The position numbers and the translations under genes are program-made. The notes beneath the pieces were generated by a model. That model did no database searches and was not told the origin of the DNA. It saw nothing but the letters and a program-made list of their open reading frames with translations. DNA of 64,000 nt, taken from assembly GCF_023746535.1 (NCBI RefSeq), contig NZ_CP098747.1:2812501-2876500 (forward strand), in the 5' to 3' direction. The DNA is from Sneathiella marina (lineage in GTDB: Bacteria; Pseudomonadota; Alphaproteobacteria; Sneathiellales; Sneathiellaceae). Shown piece by piece: positions 7,529-41,952 of the stretch (positions are counted from its first letter, which is position 1; every line of letters starts with the position of its first letter).

Positions 7529-8596
7529 TCAGAGAAATTGATAGAGGATTTGAGACATATACTGCCACAGCAGTCCGGTCAGAATCGATCCTGTAAATCC
7601 GAGCACCAGGTAAAGCGCAAATACTTCCCGTTTCACCAGACCGAAAACCGCAACCGCTGCCGGGATGGACGAAACCGCTCCGGCTGTCATGAACGCCATG
7701 GCTGCCCCTTGCGACATCCCCAACTCCAGCAAGCCACTCACCAAGGGAATAGCCGCATAGCCATTTAGATAACTGGGAATACCTATCAACACCGCTAGCG
7801 GAATGGCAAAGAGATTTTCCTGCCCCACCAGGTCTTCAACAAAAGTTGTCGGAATATACGTCACCATTATGGCTTCAAGAAGGAAGGCCAGAACCAGCCA
7901 GCGTCCGATCAACCAACCATTGGAGAGTCCGGATTCAGTAAACACTGTCCGCCGGTCCTGATCAGACCAGATTTGCCAGTGAACATGGACGGGGCCTTTC
8001 AAATCAAGCTTCGGACGGCATCCTCCGGGCATATCAGCGCGTAAAGGGTTCTGAATTGCGCCGCGCTTCTGTAGCAGGAAAATCGCAAATCCTGCGAACA
8101 GGCCCAATGCAATGGCGATAACCGTTTTTCCGCTGGCAAAGCCGACGCCAATGCCGACGGACGTCAGGACAAAGATCTCAGGGTCCATAATCGGTGATGC
8201 GATCCAGAAGGCCATAACCGGGGCCAATGGAACCCCTGCAACCAGCAATGACGCAACCAGCGGGATTACACCGCAGGAGCAAAAGGGCGACAAGGCGCCT
8301 ACCAGCGACGCTGCAAATATAGCCGTAACAGGCGATCCGGAGAAGGCTTTGGCAATATAACCGTCGGCTCCGGATGCTTGAAAATAAGCAGCTAGACCGA
8401 CGGCAATCAGGAAAAACGGTGCCATTGACACAAGCGCGTTGCCCAAAAAGACCAAGCTATCCGGCACCTGTACCGGATCAATGACCAGCTGCAACAGGAT
8501 CACTGCGAAACAGGCGAGAATAACTTTATCCGTCAAAAACGACCAGATGCGGGATCGTGTTTGCAATAAGGACGGCAGGATTTCATTCATAGACAT
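7529..8596 (-). CDS. ArsP/SO_0444-like permease (UPF0718 family)
   Basis: This 355-residue inner-membrane protein has about eight to ten hydrophobic segments in two halves joined by a polar loop near 185-225. The first half carries the CSC pair (C106, C108) in SPFCSCGVIPL and the ASPIMDPE motif, which identify the permease family that includes ArsP (organoarsenical efflux) and SO_0444-like Cu/Zn exporters. The second half repeats the pattern with PSYLNGYAAIPL. It lies downstream of an ArsR repressor on the same strand, with a perfect palindrome in the 129-base gap, so it is very likely metal- or metalloid-inducible. The exported ion is not certain from sequence. Confidence 0.88.
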   Translation of the reverse strand: MSMNEILPSLLQTRSRIWSFLTDKVILACFAVILLQLVIDPVQVPDSLVFLGNALVSMAPFFLIAVGLAAYFQASGADGYIAKAFSGSPVTAIFAASLVGALSPFCSCGVIPLVASLLVAGVPLAPVMAFWIASPIMDPEIFVLTSVGIGVGFASGKTVIAIALGLFAGFAIFLLQKRGAIQNPLRADMPGGCRPKLDLKGPVHVHWQIWSDQDRRTVFTESGLSNGWLIGRWLVLAFLLEAIMVTYIPTTFVEDLVGQENLFAIPLAVLIGIPSYLNGYAAIPLVSGLLELGMSQGAAMAFMTAGAVSSIPAAVAVFGLVKREVFALYLVLGFTGSILTGLLWQYMSQILYQFL

Positions 8597-36871: not shown

Positions 36872-37099
36872 AACCAACCCCTTCGACCGTATCGACAGAC
36901 TAAGGGTTTAGCGAAGAAGCACGCCATTTGCTATTAAAAAACAGTCTTATATGGAAATAACTGGCGCTGCAGACCATCTGTTTCACATTTATGGAAATTG
37001 ATAATTTGTCAGTTTTAGATAACTTGCAAGATGCGGTCCTCTCGCAAGTAAATACCCTGAGTAATTTCGCGCAACCAAGGCTGCATGGCGTGTCATTGG
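36872..37099. other. Intergenic region upstream of maeB
   Basis: This region of 228 bases lies between maeB and the end of the LysR gene. It contains a hairpin with arms ACTTGC and GCAAGT (about 37021-37050) without a T tract. A 44-codon open frame from 36991 lacks a ribosome site, and I do not call it. It should hold the maeB promoter. Confidence 0.35.
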
Positions 37100-37957
37100 C
37101 TAGTCGCGTACTGCGCCTTTAAATGCGACCGATAATTCGCTTAGCGCTGTATGGGACCTGCCATCCCTAACCCTTGTATGCAGAAGAATTGGCAGGCTTG
37201 GGAGTTCGGGAAGTCCAAGCCTAATGCCGACGTCGTTTGCGCCTAGCGGTAGCATCCGGCGCGCTAACGCAGCAACTCCGAGCTTGGCCATAACAGCTGC
37301 GGAAACAGCCATCACTCCACCGCCCACAAATACTTCCGTCCAGGGAATGCCCGCCTCGTCGAGGTATTTTTCTGCCAGTCGGCGCACTCCGCATGGCTCG
37401 GGCATTGTGGCAACAGGAAGCGGATCTCCAGTCCTATGTTGCCAACCTTCCGCTGCGAACCAGCCGAATTTTTCAGTGGCGATTATTTTTCCGTCATCTC
37501 GGCCTGCATCGAAGCGGGCAATCACAGCATCAAGTTCCCTGCGGTCGAAGCTTCGAAGAAGATCACTGGAAGATCCGATCCGGACCTCGATCAATAACTG
37601 GCGATCCTGTTGGTTCATACGTGCAATGAGTGCGGGAAGTTCAGGTCCAGCAACATGATCACTGATACCAATGACCAAGCGTTCCTGCTGCTCGGTAAAA
37701 ACGGAAAATGCTCGATCATGTACTTTCAATAGCTCACGGGCATGCTCCAGGAAGGCAGCCCCTTGTGCAGAAAGCTGTACATGACGCGGCGTTCGCTCGA
37801 CCAGACGGCAGTCCAAGCGCTCCTCAAGCCTTTTCAGTTTCAAGCTGACCGCAGCCTGCGTTGTCTCTGTGGCTTCCGCTGCAAGCGTAAAACTACCCAG
37901 CTCAACAATTAAGATAAATGCACGTACTGCATCAAGATCCAAAGGCCGATCAATCAT
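37100..37957 (-). CDS. LysR-family transcriptional regulator
   Basis: This 285-residue LysR regulator has an N-terminal winged helix (residues 8-65; LDAVRAFILIVELGSFTLAAEATETTQAAVSLKLKRLEERL) and an effector domain. I took the ATG at 37957 rather than the TTG at 37963. It is divergent from a tautomerase gene. The gap of about 95 bases holds a near-perfect inverted repeat (12-base arms, 37965-37976 and 37995-38006), so it very likely controls that gene and itself. The effector is unknown. Confidence 0.92.
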   Translation of the reverse strand: MIDRPLDLDAVRAFILIVELGSFTLAAEATETTQAAVSLKLKRLEERLDCRLVERTPRHVQLSAQGAAFLEHARELLKVHDRAFSVFTEQQERLVIGISDHVAGPELPALIARMNQQDRQLLIEVRIGSSSDLLRSFDRRELDAVIARFDAGRDDGKIIATEKFGWFAAEGWQHRTGDPLPVATMPEPCGVRRLAEKYLDEAGIPWTEVFVGGGVMAVSAAVMAKLGVAALARRMLPLGANDVGIRLGLPELPSLPILLHTRVRDGRSHTALSELSVAFKGAVRD

Positions 37958-37964
37958 TACCAAA

Positions 37965-38006
37965 TATTATTACAAATATAAAAAGACATTTCATTTTGTA
38001 ATGATA
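37965..38006. promoter_or_regulatory. Inverted repeat in the LysR-tautomerase intergenic region
   Basis: TATTATTACAAA (37965-37976) and TTTGTAATGATA (37995-38006) are inverted copies matching at 11 of 12 positions with an 18-base spacer. A third similar half-site, TCATTACCAAAT, overlaps the regulator's start. The layout fits LysR recognition and activation sites. Confidence 0.6.
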
Positions 38007-38052
38007 CTTTATTTCTCAACCGTAAGCCAACACCTAACTTGAAAGGATTGCC

Positions 38053-38433
38053 ATGCCAATCGCCCAAATCCAGCTGCGTAAAGGAAAACCGGAGACCTAT
38101 CGGAAAGCAGTTTTCGACAGTCTCTATCAAGCATTACGTACAGCACTTGATGTGCCTGAAGACGACCAGTTCATGACTATCACCGAGCATGATGCCGCCA
38201 ATTTTCGCTACGGCGGCGCCTTTGATGTCACAAGAAGTGATGACCTCCTTTACATCCAGATTACTGTGTTTGACACACGCAGCGTAGATCAAAAGAAGGT
38301 GCTTTTCGCAAAAATTGTGGAATTACTTGGCAAGAAACCCGGCATTCGCCCCGAGGATGTCTTTATAAACATATATGATTTGCCGAAGGAGAACTGGTCA
38401 GTGGGAAACGGCATCGCACAGTTTGCGAGATGA
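38053..38433 (+). CDS. Tautomerase family protein
   Basis: This 126-residue protein of the 4-oxalocrotonate tautomerase/MIF superfamily has the essential proline after the initiator methionine (MPIAQIQLRKGK), where the free Pro amine acts as a general base. The length indicates a two-module, MIF-like or cis-CaaD-like subunit. A GAAAGGA ribosome site precedes the ATG. It is divergent from a LysR regulator that probably controls it. Tautomerases act on dicarbonyl, oxalocrotonate or haloacrylate compounds; the substrate here is not known. Confidence 0.88.
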   Translation: MPIAQIQLRKGKPETYRKAVFDSLYQALRTALDVPEDDQFMTITEHDAANFRYGGAFDVTRSDDLLYIQITVFDTRSVDQKKVLFAKIVELLGKKPGIRPEDVFINIYDLPKENWSVGNGIAQFAR

Positions 38434-38460
38434 AATCAAACGGGCCGGGTTTTAACAGAC

Positions 38461-39075
38461 TCATGTATCAGATGCGCCGGGAAGGATGCCTTTCAACACC
38501 ATACTGATCACGTCGTCTACCAGATCTTCCCCCAACTCGGTATGAGCGATAAGGAGCCGCAAGACAATCATGCCCAAAATCATATCGAGACAAAGTCCAA
38601 CATCAACATCGGAACGAATCTCACCGCGTATTTTTGCGCTTTCAAGAATGAGCGTACCTTTCTCCCGGGTATCCAAGATCATCCTGTTTCTGAATGCCTT
38701 AAACAATTCACTATCCGTTTCGGCGCCTGCTAGCATAAAAGCCATCTGGCGGCCCTGCTTTGAGTTGAGGCGTTGAACGGTTTGCTGAATTAGATTTCGT
38801 AAATCCGAGATACCGGGGTTGGTGGACGTTTCCGGTAGATTGGATACTTCCGGATTCATAAATGTTGCTATGGCAAGTTCCTGAGCATTTGACCAATATC
38901 GATATATGGTCGGCTTTCCAACCCCTGCCCGGCGGGCAACGCCCTCAATCGTTAATCGATGCGTTCCGGCCTCTTCAATTATCTCCCGCGCGGCTTTCAA
39001 AATGGCAAGATACGCTTTTTTGCTTCGCGGACGGCCAACTTTAGCTCCAGCCAAGTGTGATTTACCTTTACTCAT
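38461..39075 (-). CDS. TetR-family transcriptional regulator
   Basis: This 204-residue repressor has an N-terminal TetR helix-turn-helix (about residues 20-60 of the chosen start; HRLTIEGVARRAGVGKPTIYRYW) and a helical ligand-binding domain. I chose the ATG at 39075 (MSKGKSHL), since the frame to 39141 runs over the divergent VOC gene. It shares a 46-base intergenic region with that gene, so it probably represses it and itself. The TetR domain is clear. The ligand is unknown and no perfect palindrome is seen in the gap. Confidence 0.92.
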   Translation of the reverse strand: MSKGKSHLAGAKVGRPRSKKAYLAILKAAREIIEEAGTHRLTIEGVARRAGVGKPTIYRYWSNAQELAIATFMNPEVSNLPETSTNPGISDLRNLIQQTVQRLNSKQGRQMAFMLAGAETDSELFKAFRNRMILDTREKGTLILESAKIRGEIRSDVDVGLCLDMILGMIVLRLLIAHTELGEDLVDDVISMVLKGILPGASDT

Positions 39076-39121
39076 TATAAAACGATACGTAATGTAATTA
39101 ATAATAGCAAGGAGGAAAAGC

Positions 39122-39577
39122 ATGTCCCAGTCGAACAACACACTTAGTTTATCTCCCTACATGACCGTAAAGGGCGCAAGAGAGGCCATAGATTTCTATG
39201 TTAAAGCCTTCTCTGCAAAGGAAGTATTTTCGCTTGTCGATCCGATGGATGGTCGAATCGGGCATGCCGAACTGGTCATTGGCGGTGTGACATTGATGAT
39301 GTCAGATGAATATGCTGACTTCGGCGCCATTAGCCCGGAAACACTTGGCGGCTCTCCCATAAAATTCCAAATCTATGTCGAAGATGCAGATCCCCTGTTT
39401 GCACAAGCCATCGAACAGGGATGCACAGAACTGCGTCCGATGAAAGATCAATTCTTCGGTGATCGGAGCGGCACGCTGGTTGATCCTTTTGGACATACCT
39501 GGATAATCTCGATGAAAAAGACCGAGGTGTCGCCAAAAGAGATGCAAGACCGCTGGACTGCGGCCTTGCAGGGGTAA
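39122..39577 (+). CDS. VOC-family protein, PhnB-like
   Basis: This 151-residue protein has a PhnB/glyoxalase-like VOC fold. Its segments are LSPYMTVKGAREAIDFYVKAFSAKEVF, GHAELVIGGVTLMMSDE, and RSGTLVDPFGHTWIIS, a pattern common in PhnB-like proteins of unknown function. AAGGAGG lies just ahead of the ATG. It is divergent from a TetR regulator with a short gap, indicating inducible expression. A hairpin (CGGATTC and GAATCCG, 39616-39633) follows the stop. No substrate can be named. Confidence 0.88.
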   Translation: MSQSNNTLSLSPYMTVKGAREAIDFYVKAFSAKEVFSLVDPMDGRIGHAELVIGGVTLMMSDEYADFGAISPETLGGSPIKFQIYVEDADPLFAQAIEQGCTELRPMKDQFFGDRSGTLVDPFGHTWIISMKKTEVSPKEMQDRWTAALQG

Positions 39578-39615
39578 AGTTGCAGTCTATTTGCAAGATT
39601 TCAGTCAGTATAAAG

Positions 39616-39633
39616 CGGATTCGGCTGAATCCG
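39616..39633. other. Hairpin between convergent VOC genes
   Basis: CGGATTC and GAATCCG form a 7-base-pair stem with a GGCT loop between two convergent VOC genes. There is no T tract on either side, so it is a weak or factor-dependent terminator at best. Confidence 0.4.
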
Positions 39634-39679
39634 TAGTCAATTGCACCCTACCTGCGGGTTCAACATAGGAAACGACCCC

Positions 39680-40057
39680 TTACCCATCTTGGGACAAGTC
39701 TTGTGCAAGCATCAATGCATTGCCGTCAGGATCGTAAAAGGTCGCAATGCTAACCATGCCCTCGACAGTTTCCGTATCACCGTCAAATTTCACACCTGCC
39801 GTTTCAAGGTCCCTACGCGCGGTGTCGATATCTAAAACCCCAAAGACAGGAACCGAATTGCCCGGTGTGGGTTCCGCCTGCTCACCGAGCCCTAAAGTCA
39901 CGCCGGCTGTCTTGGTTTGCAGTTCGCTCCATCCTGCATCATCTATGTGATGAAGGAGAGTAAAGCCGAGCATATCACAATACCAATTGGCACTAAGATG
40001 ACGATCTCGAACGGACATAGCAATAGTGATTGTATTCTCCAACGAGACAATAGGCAT
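39680..40057 (-). CDS. VOC-family glyoxalase/dioxygenase-like protein
   Basis: This 125-residue VOC-fold protein starts at the ATG at 40057, with AAAGGAAAG upstream; the longer frame to 40210 overlaps the divergent regulator and is rejected. It has TIAMSVRDRHLSANWYCDMLGFTLL and a C-terminal FYDPDGNALMLAQ, as in glyoxalase/bleomycin-resistance relatives. It is divergent from a winged-helix regulator over a 40-base gap carrying a short palindrome. The function is unknown, and it is the third VOC gene in the window. Confidence 0.87.
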   Translation of the reverse strand: MPIVSLENTITIAMSVRDRHLSANWYCDMLGFTLLHHIDDAGWSELQTKTAGVTLGLGEQAEPTPGNSVPVFGVLDIDTARRDLETAGVKFDGDTETVEGMVSIATFYDPDGNALMLAQDLSQDG

Positions 40058-40080
40058 AAAACTTTCCTTTCGCGTAAAAA

Positions 40081-40093
40081 TATAGTAACTATA
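40081..40093. promoter_or_regulatory. Short palindrome between VOC gene and winged-helix regulator
   Basis: TATAGT (40081-40086) and ACTATA (40088-40093) are inverted repeats around one A, located 4 bases before the regulator's ATG. TATAGT resembles a -10 box for either strand, so a bound protein would block the divergent promoters. Confidence 0.55.
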
Positions 40094-40097
40094 CTTT

Positions 40098-40634
40098 ATG
40101 GACATAAATACTCTTGTCAAGATAACTTCACGTGCCTGGTCGCTGAACATATTGGCTCTGATGGATGCGGGAGTGCCGGGTCGACAGGCTCCGCTCCTTT
40201 CAGCCTCCAACGCCAGCCGGACTGCCTTTACCGCCAGTCTCGACCATTTGACCCAGTTGAAGCTGCTGGAACGAAATCCTGGTCATGGGCACCCTCTCCG
40301 TCCGGAATATCGTTTGACGTTAAAGGGGATAGAGGTCGCAAAGATCGCCAGAAGAATTGTAGAGGCCGACCCTGACTGCGCTGACTCTGATATAATTCGA
40401 AAATCATGGACTGTTCCTGTTCTTGCGGTGACTGGAAAGCCGCAATACTTCACTGAAATAAAATCAAAGCTTTTTCCGATTACGGACAGAGCATTATCCC
40501 AATCTTTATTTCAGCTTCACGGGCGGGATTGGCTTCTGCGTGATGTTGACTCAACAAAACGGCCATTAAGACCAACATATCAAGTGTCCAGCGTCGGCGT
40601 CAGAATAAACAGGGCCATTAATTTCGGCCGATAG
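40098..40634 (+). CDS. HxlR-like winged-helix transcriptional regulator with two domains
   Basis: This 178-residue protein appears to contain two HxlR/MarR-like winged-helix modules. The first (about residues 8-90) reads SRAWSLNILALMDAGVPGR, LDHLTQLKLLERNPGHGHPLRPEYRLTLKG. The second (about 105-175) reads WTVPVLAVTGKPQYFTEIKSKLFPITDRALSQSLFQLHGRDWLL, RPTYQVSSVGVRI. The wing sequences end in LRPEYRLT and LRPTYQVS, so they look like an internal duplication. It is divergent from a VOC gene. The ATG has no Shine-Dalgarno and lies 4 bases after a palindrome. HxlR proteins respond to aldehydes or reactive electrophiles in known cases. Confidence 0.8.
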   Translation: MDINTLVKITSRAWSLNILALMDAGVPGRQAPLLSASNASRTAFTASLDHLTQLKLLERNPGHGHPLRPEYRLTLKGIEVAKIARRIVEADPDCADSDIIRKSWTVPVLAVTGKPQYFTEIKSKLFPITDRALSQSLFQLHGRDWLLRDVDSTKRPLRPTYQVSSVGVRINRAINFGR

Positions 40635-40690
40635 CCGTAATTCTTGATTACAATGAGGTCACCGTTCCATATCGCCGGCGTAAATACAAC

Positions 40691-40834
40691 GAAACTTGGC
40701 ATGACCGAAGGACGATCATGCTTGCCTCATCGTAGCAATCTGATCAATTGAATGAGCTTAATCTGTAGTTTGCTGTATTCAAATAACAAATGCTTGCTCG
40801 ATATACTGTAAATCGACACAATTGAATTGGTATT
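40691..40834. repeat. Imperfect copy of the tRNA-Leu flanks lacking the tRNA
   Basis: Sequence upstream of the SnoaL-like gene matches both flanks of the tRNA-Leu locus at 41327-41556. Shared blocks are TAGCAATCTG (here 40733-40742), TCAATTGAA, a TGTAG-TTG segment and AATAACAAATG (about 40782-40792), in the same order. The tRNA body itself is missing in this copy. The two copies bracket the SnoaL-like gene as direct repeats. Confidence 0.6.
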
Positions 40835-40857
40835 ACTGCATCAGGGAGGAGCTCAAT

Positions 40858-41286
40858 TTGACTGAAGAAGATCTTATACTGGATACTTTGGAAGAATATG
40901 CCAAAGCATATTGCGCAAAAGACCTTAACAGACTGATGGCCATATTCGTTGAGGGGCAAGGCATCTCGCTTATAGGAACTGGTTCTGATGAGCTTTGTTC
41001 TGGTAGAGAAGCTGTCGCAGCTGTCTTCGAGCGAAATTTCCGTGATGCGACAGCCTCACGATTCGAATGGGCCTGGAAAGACATTGCAATTCACGGCAAT
41101 GCTGCAATCGTAGCCATTGCACTAAACATACATCTAAAAATCAACGACGGTACTGCCATAGTACCGCTTCGTTGGACGGTTTCACTTATCGCGACGAATG
41201 CAGGCTGGAAGTGGGTTCATCGTCACGCTTCCGCGGCTGCAAATTCGCAAGAAGAAGGCTCCGCTTATCCATCTTTGAAAAACTGA
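40858..41286 (+). CDS. SnoaL/NTF2-like domain protein
   Basis: This 142-residue protein has a SnoaL-like (NTF2 fold) pattern: an N-terminal helix TLEEYAKAYCAKDLNRLMAIF, then GREAVAAVFERNF, and beta strands ending in GWKWVHRHAS. The family includes small-molecule isomerases and many stress-associated proteins of unknown role. The start is the TTG at 40858, which has AGGGAGGAG seven bases upstream; an ATG at 40822 has no such site. The gene is bracketed by imperfect direct repeats of the tRNA-Leu flanks (40691-40834 and 41327-41556) and does not belong to an evident operon. Confidence 0.8.
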   Translation: MTEEDLILDTLEEYAKAYCAKDLNRLMAIFVEGQGISLIGTGSDELCSGREAVAAVFERNFRDATASRFEWAWKDIAIHGNAAIVAIALNIHLKINDGTAIVPLRWTVSLIATNAGWKWVHRHASAAANSQEEGSAYPSLKN

Positions 41287-41326
41287 ACCGGTACGCGGAA
41301 ATTCCAAAGCACTAGCTTTGGTACAA

Positions 41327-41556
41327 GAAAGCTTGGCTTGACCAAAACACAACCAGACCCGCCCCAGATAGCAATCTGAGCAGAGTCAATTGAAACTGAT
41401 TTGTAGGTTGGTGCGGCCGAGAAGACTCGAACTTCCACCCGTGTTACCGGACAGCGACCTCAACGCTGCGCGTCTACCAATTCCGCCACGGCCGCACAAT
41501 GGTGCACGGGAATAACAAATGTTTGCCCGACGTGCAACAACTGAATTCGTTATTTG
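41327..41556. repeat. tRNA-Leu locus flanks, second member of the imperfect repeat
   Basis: The 3' flank (41327-41408) and 5' flank (41496-41556) of tRNA-Leu match the region 40691-40834 in order: a CTTGGCTTGACC block, TAGCAATCTG, TCAATTGAA, TGTAGGTTG, and AATAACAAATG followed by a similar run ending in CTGAATT. The matched 5' flank includes the presumed tRNA promoter area. Confidence 0.6.
41409..41495 (-). tRNA. tRNA-Leu (anticodon GAG), CCA encoded
   Basis: On the minus strand the acceptor arm GCGGCCG pairs with CGGCCGC. D-arm sequence TGGTAGACGC, anticodon stem CAGCG/CGCTG with loop TTGAGGT (anticodon GAG), a class II long variable arm around TCCGGTAACACGG, and a T-loop TTCGAGT are all visible. 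A discriminator A and genomically encoded CCA complete the 3' end. It lies 67 bases downstream of the FliN-like gene on the same strand. A TTGCAC/TATTCC pair upstream could be its own promoter. Confidence 0.95.
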
Positions 41557-41562
41557 GTCGAA

Positions 41563-41811
41563 TTAAAATTCCTGGGTATTGTTTTTCACATTATCAGTGA
41601 TCGAAATCCCGATATTGTCATCGACAATAATGATTTCGCCATAAGCGATAGGCTTATTATTTGCGAGAACGACCGCATCGTCATCTGCGCCGGCATCCAG
41701 TTCGATGACGGCTCCGCGCCCCATTTTCAGAAGCTGATGAATAGGCATAACAGCTTTTCCCAGTACCACTGAGATTTCCACATCCACGCCCTCAATTGCT
41801 TTGTCGTCCAT
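41563..41811 (-). CDS. FliN-like SpoA-domain protein, orphan
   Basis: This 82-residue protein is nearly only a SpoA (FliN/FliM C-terminal) domain: EGVDVEISVVLGKAVMPIHQLLKMGRGAVIELDAG followed by PIAYGEIIIVDDNIGISITD. FliN forms the flagellar C-ring with FliM and FliG; related SpoA proteins serve type III secretion. No other flagellar gene is in the window. The ATG at 41811 has GGA eight bases upstream; an upstream in-frame ATG at 41859 is less likely. It is shorter than typical FliN because the N-terminal part is absent. The next feature on the same strand is tRNA-Leu. Confidence 0.88.
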   Translation of the reverse strand: MDDKAIEGVDVEISVVLGKAVMPIHQLLKMGRGAVIELDAGADDDAVVLANNKPIAYGEIIIVDDNIGISITDNVKNNTQEF

Positions 41812-41952
41812 CACGTTTCCACATACCGGTTGGTTACTTATGACGCATAGTATGCGCAATCAGGGTTAACAAGCCCTTAAGAAAGGCCTGCGATTCCGTA
41901 TTTCGATATGCACCGATGTTGTTGTTTTGAATGTATCTGCTATAACTCAGCC

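Follow-up and report, generated by a model that had tools for sequence, protein, structure and literature searches.

In the 64,000-nucleotide stretch of the Sneathiella marina genome analysed here (the window), a segment of about 120 bp to the left of a SnoaL-like gene (40685–40801, perhaps to 40840; copy 1) was found to repeat the sequence on either side of the tRNA-Leu(GAG) gene, collinear and in the same orientation but without the tRNA itself. Copy 1 was located about 0.6–0.7 kb to the left of the tRNA-Leu(GAG) unit (copy 2). We consider copy 1 to be probably what is left of another tRNA-Leu(GAG) locus. On this view, the unit would have been doubled, with the SnoaL-like gene between the copies, and one redundant tRNA then deleted. 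The features of the locus were as follows.

40098–40634, plus strand: HxlR-type regulator to the left of copy 1 (PF01638, E 1.3e-11)
40685–40768, minus strand: downstream (3′) tRNA flank of copy 1, D1, aligning to 41322–41406 with a score of 44
40769–40781, minus strand: joint of copy 1 at the tRNA's expected place, 13 nt without residual tRNA similarity
40782–40801, minus strand: upstream (promoter-side) flank of copy 1, U1, 18/20 identical to 41511–41530, with a possible continuation to about 40840
40858–41286, plus strand: SnoaL-like gene, Pfam SnoaL_3 (PF13474, E 4.8e-20), with a TTG start after GGAGGAG
41322–41408, minus strand: downstream (3′) tRNA flank of copy 2, D2, from the flank alignment
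41409–41495, minus strand: tRNA-Leu(GAG), the sole copy found in the genome (ARAGORN, own-genome search, Rfam RF00005)
41496–41555, minus strand: upstream (promoter) flank of copy 2, U2, conserved in congeners
41563–41859, minus strand: FliN-type protein (PF01052, E 2.5e-21), adjoining the tRNA in congeners and its ancestral neighbour on the promoter side

The sequence blocks on which the first-pass annotation had based a direct repeat were all located, with their order kept, at 40733–40792 and 41369–41520. The repeat of the tRNA-Leu flanks is real, as confirmed by local alignment of 40640–40900 against the two tRNA flanks joined. The alignment covered 40685–40801 against 41322–41408 plus 41496–41530 with a score of 58, whereas 2000 dinucleotide shuffles averaged 18.9 (sd 2.6) and peaked at 32, and the next-best place in the window for the joined-flank query scored 27. 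The downstream and upstream flanks by themselves scored 44 and 30, respectively, and 0/2000 shuffles scored as high in either case. Continuation of the similarity to about 40840/41555 was only suggestive, since 73/2000 shuffles equalled it. No similarity was detected outside both ends of the repeat in the stretches tested; the HxlR and SnoaL-like genes were not reached. Both flanks were thus present in two copies in the same order, the pattern of a duplicated tRNA locus. The single blocks are short (11–20 nt), as might be expected if tRNA promoter and terminator regions resembled each other by chance or convergence, but the probability of this explanation is negligible given the score of the ordered match, and the U-block pattern had two matches in the genome, both at this locus.

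The repeat was not dispersed: the 4.07-Mb genome (one contig) held one extra copy and no third copy of the unit, and none was found in 23 congeners. The 15-mer AATANCAAATGNTTG occurred twice in the genome, at copy 1 and copy 2. Searched against the 23 congeners, copy 1 yielded no match better than E 0.02, and no second tRNA unit was present beside the tRNA in the 17 fetched congener loci. No other species yielded the downstream flank D, so the duplication is not datable. The ancestral spacer between maeB and the tRNA was rejected as the source of the D flank, because the best score of D1/D2 in nine congeners was 21, within the shuffle range. Phage and plasmid records were matched via the tRNA part of the query only (for plasmids, among the 20 of 37 records listed), and the U pattern was unmatched in viral contigs. 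One apparent parallel, in the congener locus L091, was also rejected: a second 3′-flank match scored 39, exceeding the maxima for the downstream flank in other congeners (20–29), but consisted of a 32-nt stretch without a promoter flank or tRNA near it. In L091, this stretch of the tRNA 3′ flank was present at 1851–1882 and 7572–7603, 5.7 kb apart, with 84% identity.

The tRNA-bearing state of the locus is ancestral. A full-length tRNA-Leu(GAG) was detected in 19/23 congeners, and one more had a partial gene at a contig end. In the remaining three (G008, G016 and G017) it was undetected, and there lipB was either undetected as well (two genomes) or cut by a contig end (one genome); the apparent absence was uninformative, and these genomes were not taken as evidence for a tRNA-less allele. 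In all 17 fetched congener loci, the tRNA had the fliN–lipB pair on its promoter side; fliN was the immediate neighbour in 15 (tRNA–fliN distance 155–204 bp) and was separated by an insert in two (1.5 or 2.9 kb). The promoter flank of the tRNA was conserved across many congeners. Because of this constant fliN–lipB neighbourhood, we regard copy 1, which lacks the tRNA, as derived and the tRNA with its promoter flank as ancestral. No tRNA was predicted in copy 1 by ARAGORN, and tRNA (RF00005) was the only Rfam family matched. A duplication followed by loss of the tRNA had been suggested in the first-pass annotation. Its outline and its polarity were right; the intact duplicate it presupposes is deduced from the scar and has never been observed, and none of the congeners, with one genome per species, carried two tandem tRNA-Leu(GAG) genes.

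The tRNA had also been described as missing cleanly from copy 1, which was nearly so. A gap-free comparison corresponded to a deletion of 91 bp (the 87-bp tRNA plus 4 bp), and the 13-nt joint has since diverged; no residual tRNA similarity was found in the 19 bases at the joint. A short direct repeat was identified around the tRNA of copy 2.

41409–41414, no strand: TGGTGC, left member of a 6-bp direct repeat, at the tRNA 3′ end (hexamer search)
41500–41505, no strand: TGGTGC, right member, in the promoter flank, 91 bp from the left member

A deletion from TGGTGC to TGGTGC takes out 91 bp, and the predicted joint is exactly of copy 1's length and 29/38 identical to it without gaps. Alternative breakpoints at offset 91 also gave 29/38, so that the hexamer is not distinguished from them by the joint itself. 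A run of at least 6 at offset 91 was observed in 0.13% of shuffles and at 0.33% of window positions (30/9058). In a scan of 46 offsets, runs of at least 5 were found at 91 and 75 only, the latter carrying the 6-mer CGGCCG, the acceptor-stem palindrome. The retained hexamer position in copy 1 reads TGCTGT, compared with TGGTGC at offset 91 in copy 2. The promoter-side hexamer was also seen by eye in two congeners, G002 and G021. Since the hexamer run occurs at exactly the offset set by the flanking blocks, and the hexamer-to-hexamer joint has the length of copy 1, the arrangement suggests that the tRNA may have been lost from copy 1 by slipped-strand deletion. In such deletions, a structured segment flanked by direct repeats of a few bases is lost along with one of the repeats; slippage of this kind is well established in bacteria generally. 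The present locus is similar in that short direct repeats lie on either side of a structured segment; it differs in that this segment is a tRNA gene and that the putative event is reconstructed from one scar. A related passage on slipped-strand deletion between short direct repeats is found in PMC3519483.

The gene between the two copies is foreign to the genus. Its match to the SnoaL_3 profile reached 72.5 bits, above the curated cut-off of 22. The first-pass annotation had proposed to look for relatives without this gene, and of the 40 genomes examined only the window's own carried it, the other 39 lacking it. Ten SnoaL-like relatives with 65–77% identity were found elsewhere, mostly in Rhodobacteraceae by record title and one in an unclassified alphaproteobacterial MAG. 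Given its occurrence in 1/40 genomes and the relatives elsewhere, the gene was most likely horizontally acquired, with no donor flanks visible. Import together with its own flanks was rejected, since the ten homologous loci showed no flank similarity to the window. None of the ten was beside a tRNA-Leu (0/10), and one had a tRNA-Asp.

For the preferred reading of copy 1 as a relic, the following steps are proposed. A short unit comprising the tRNA with its downstream and promoter flanks would have become present twice, and the horizontally acquired SnoaL-like gene would have come to stand between the two copies, although the order of duplication and gene gain is provisional. One redundant tRNA would then have been deleted, most likely by slipped-strand mispairing of the TGGTGC hexamers bracketing the cloverleaf, and single tRNA dosage would thereby have been restored. 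Alternatively, copy 1 could be a diverged allele of this locus that arrived together with the SnoaL-like gene, through homologous recombination at the tRNA flanks with DNA of a related species; the tRNA would have been lost before or after. We regard this as possible but rather doubtful. The two copies differ about as much as the flanks do between species (by eye), inserts occur on the tRNA promoter side in 2/17 congeners, as the SnoaL-like gene does relative to copy 1, and PMC5635113 describes integrase-poor hotspots in which recombination takes place at the flanking core genes. However, neither the D flank nor a tRNA-less allele was found in any of the 23 congeners, and the donor is hypothetical. 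On the best reading, the tRNA-Leu locus was duplicated or a second allele was imported, the SnoaL-like gene was gained and one of the tRNAs was lost.

On the relic interpretation, the locus would be a readable scar of a tRNA gene set changing and returning: a second locus arises, a tRNA is lost between hexamer repeats and dosage is restored, while the foreign gene stays. Strains with an intact pair, if found, would make the route and the deletion joint directly checkable; otherwise the locus is a piece of local genome history. In Pseudomonas fluorescens SBW25, tRNA gene gain by tandem duplications of 45–290 kb, raising the tRNA dose, is reported in PMC7661048. As would be the case here, a tRNA locus was doubled within one chromosome by tandem duplication. 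Unlike the large, dose-raising duplications of that account, the present unit measures only about 0.2 kb and has lost one of its tRNAs.

A retained function of copy 1 was given little weight. It might have been kept as a promoter reading rightwards into the SnoaL-like gene, or as a small RNA reading leftwards and ending in a hairpin, but this is very unlikely.

40685–40734, minus strand: strong stem-loop (20-bp) inside D1, between the HxlR and SnoaL-like genes (−25.0 kcal/mol, z −7.05)

The z-score of this hairpin is consistent with such a role, as are a weak promoter-like TTCAAA-18-TATACT on the plus strand within copy 1 (40778–40807), directed towards the SnoaL-like gene, and, read by eye, TTTACA-18-TGTTAT on the minus strand. 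Against it, the promoter scan showed no clear excess over shuffles (2 vs. a mean of 1.7), and the hairpin has no U-tract after it (by eye) and no homologues that would allow covariation analysis. The hairpin was not conserved in copy 2, in which 41296–41370, the stretch covering the corresponding part, had a z-score of −0.49. It is very improbable that the tRNA-stripped promoter region was co-opted as a divergent control for both the SnoaL-like gene rightwards and a short structured RNA leftwards.

The surroundings of copy 1 belong to a stretch that varied strongly among congeners.

36878–41408, no strand: variable stretch between maeB (malic enzyme gene, identified by eye) and the 3′ end of the tRNA, with a length of about 200 bp in 5/17 congeners

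The distance from the malic enzyme gene to the tRNA 3′ side was 2.4–12.8 kb in another 5/17 congener loci, and in 7/17 the malic enzyme gene was outside the fetched stretch. In the window, this gap was 4.5 kb and contained, by Pfam, a TetR, two glyoxalase-family proteins, an HxlR and the SnoaL-like protein, and by eye a LysR and a short tautomerase-like ORF. The 3′ side of tRNA-Leu is a gene-turnover hotspot within the genus. Turnover on this side is usual for integrase targets, which raises the idea that the two copies represent the attL and attR sites of an element integrated here. Such a site-specific integration scar is extremely improbable, and the att-site reading was rejected. Repeats of this kind at tRNA genes are usually within the tRNA itself, whereas here the flanks are repeated and the tRNA is the one part that is not; no repeat of the tRNA end was found. 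No integrase was recognised by eye among the window ORFs that were read or among those listed for six maeB–tRNA-type intervals in congeners, and the genome's three tyrosine-recombinase matches were far off, at 0.11, 0.32 and 0.81 Mb, with the window at 2.81–2.88 Mb. The statement in the first-pass annotation that this is not a usual integrase att site was thus borne out.

Hotspots of horizontal transfer without recognisable integrases are treated in PMC5635113. The present locus resembles those described there in its rapid accessory-gene turnover between fixed core genes with no recognised integrase, and differs in that a single inserted gene is bracketed by copies of tRNA flanks. The locus is ordinary in kind, a scar of duplication and deletion where neighbouring genes turn over fast.

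In two congener loci, the spacing on the promoter side was unusual. Locus L087 (G021) had 1.3 kb between tRNA-Leu and fliN, and its tRNA unit was flanked by ORFs. Judged by eye, those on the 3′ side include a HupE-like membrane protein and those on the promoter side a His-rich outer-membrane-like protein, as though the tRNA were embedded in a single gene block. Locus L093 (G013) had 2.7 kb between tRNA-Leu and fliN, with a large sensor-like ORF (866 aa) on the promoter side. Similar ORFs (816 and 818 aa) were located on the tRNA 3′ side in L078 and L085, so that the side of the tRNA on which apparently the same gene is found differs between species.
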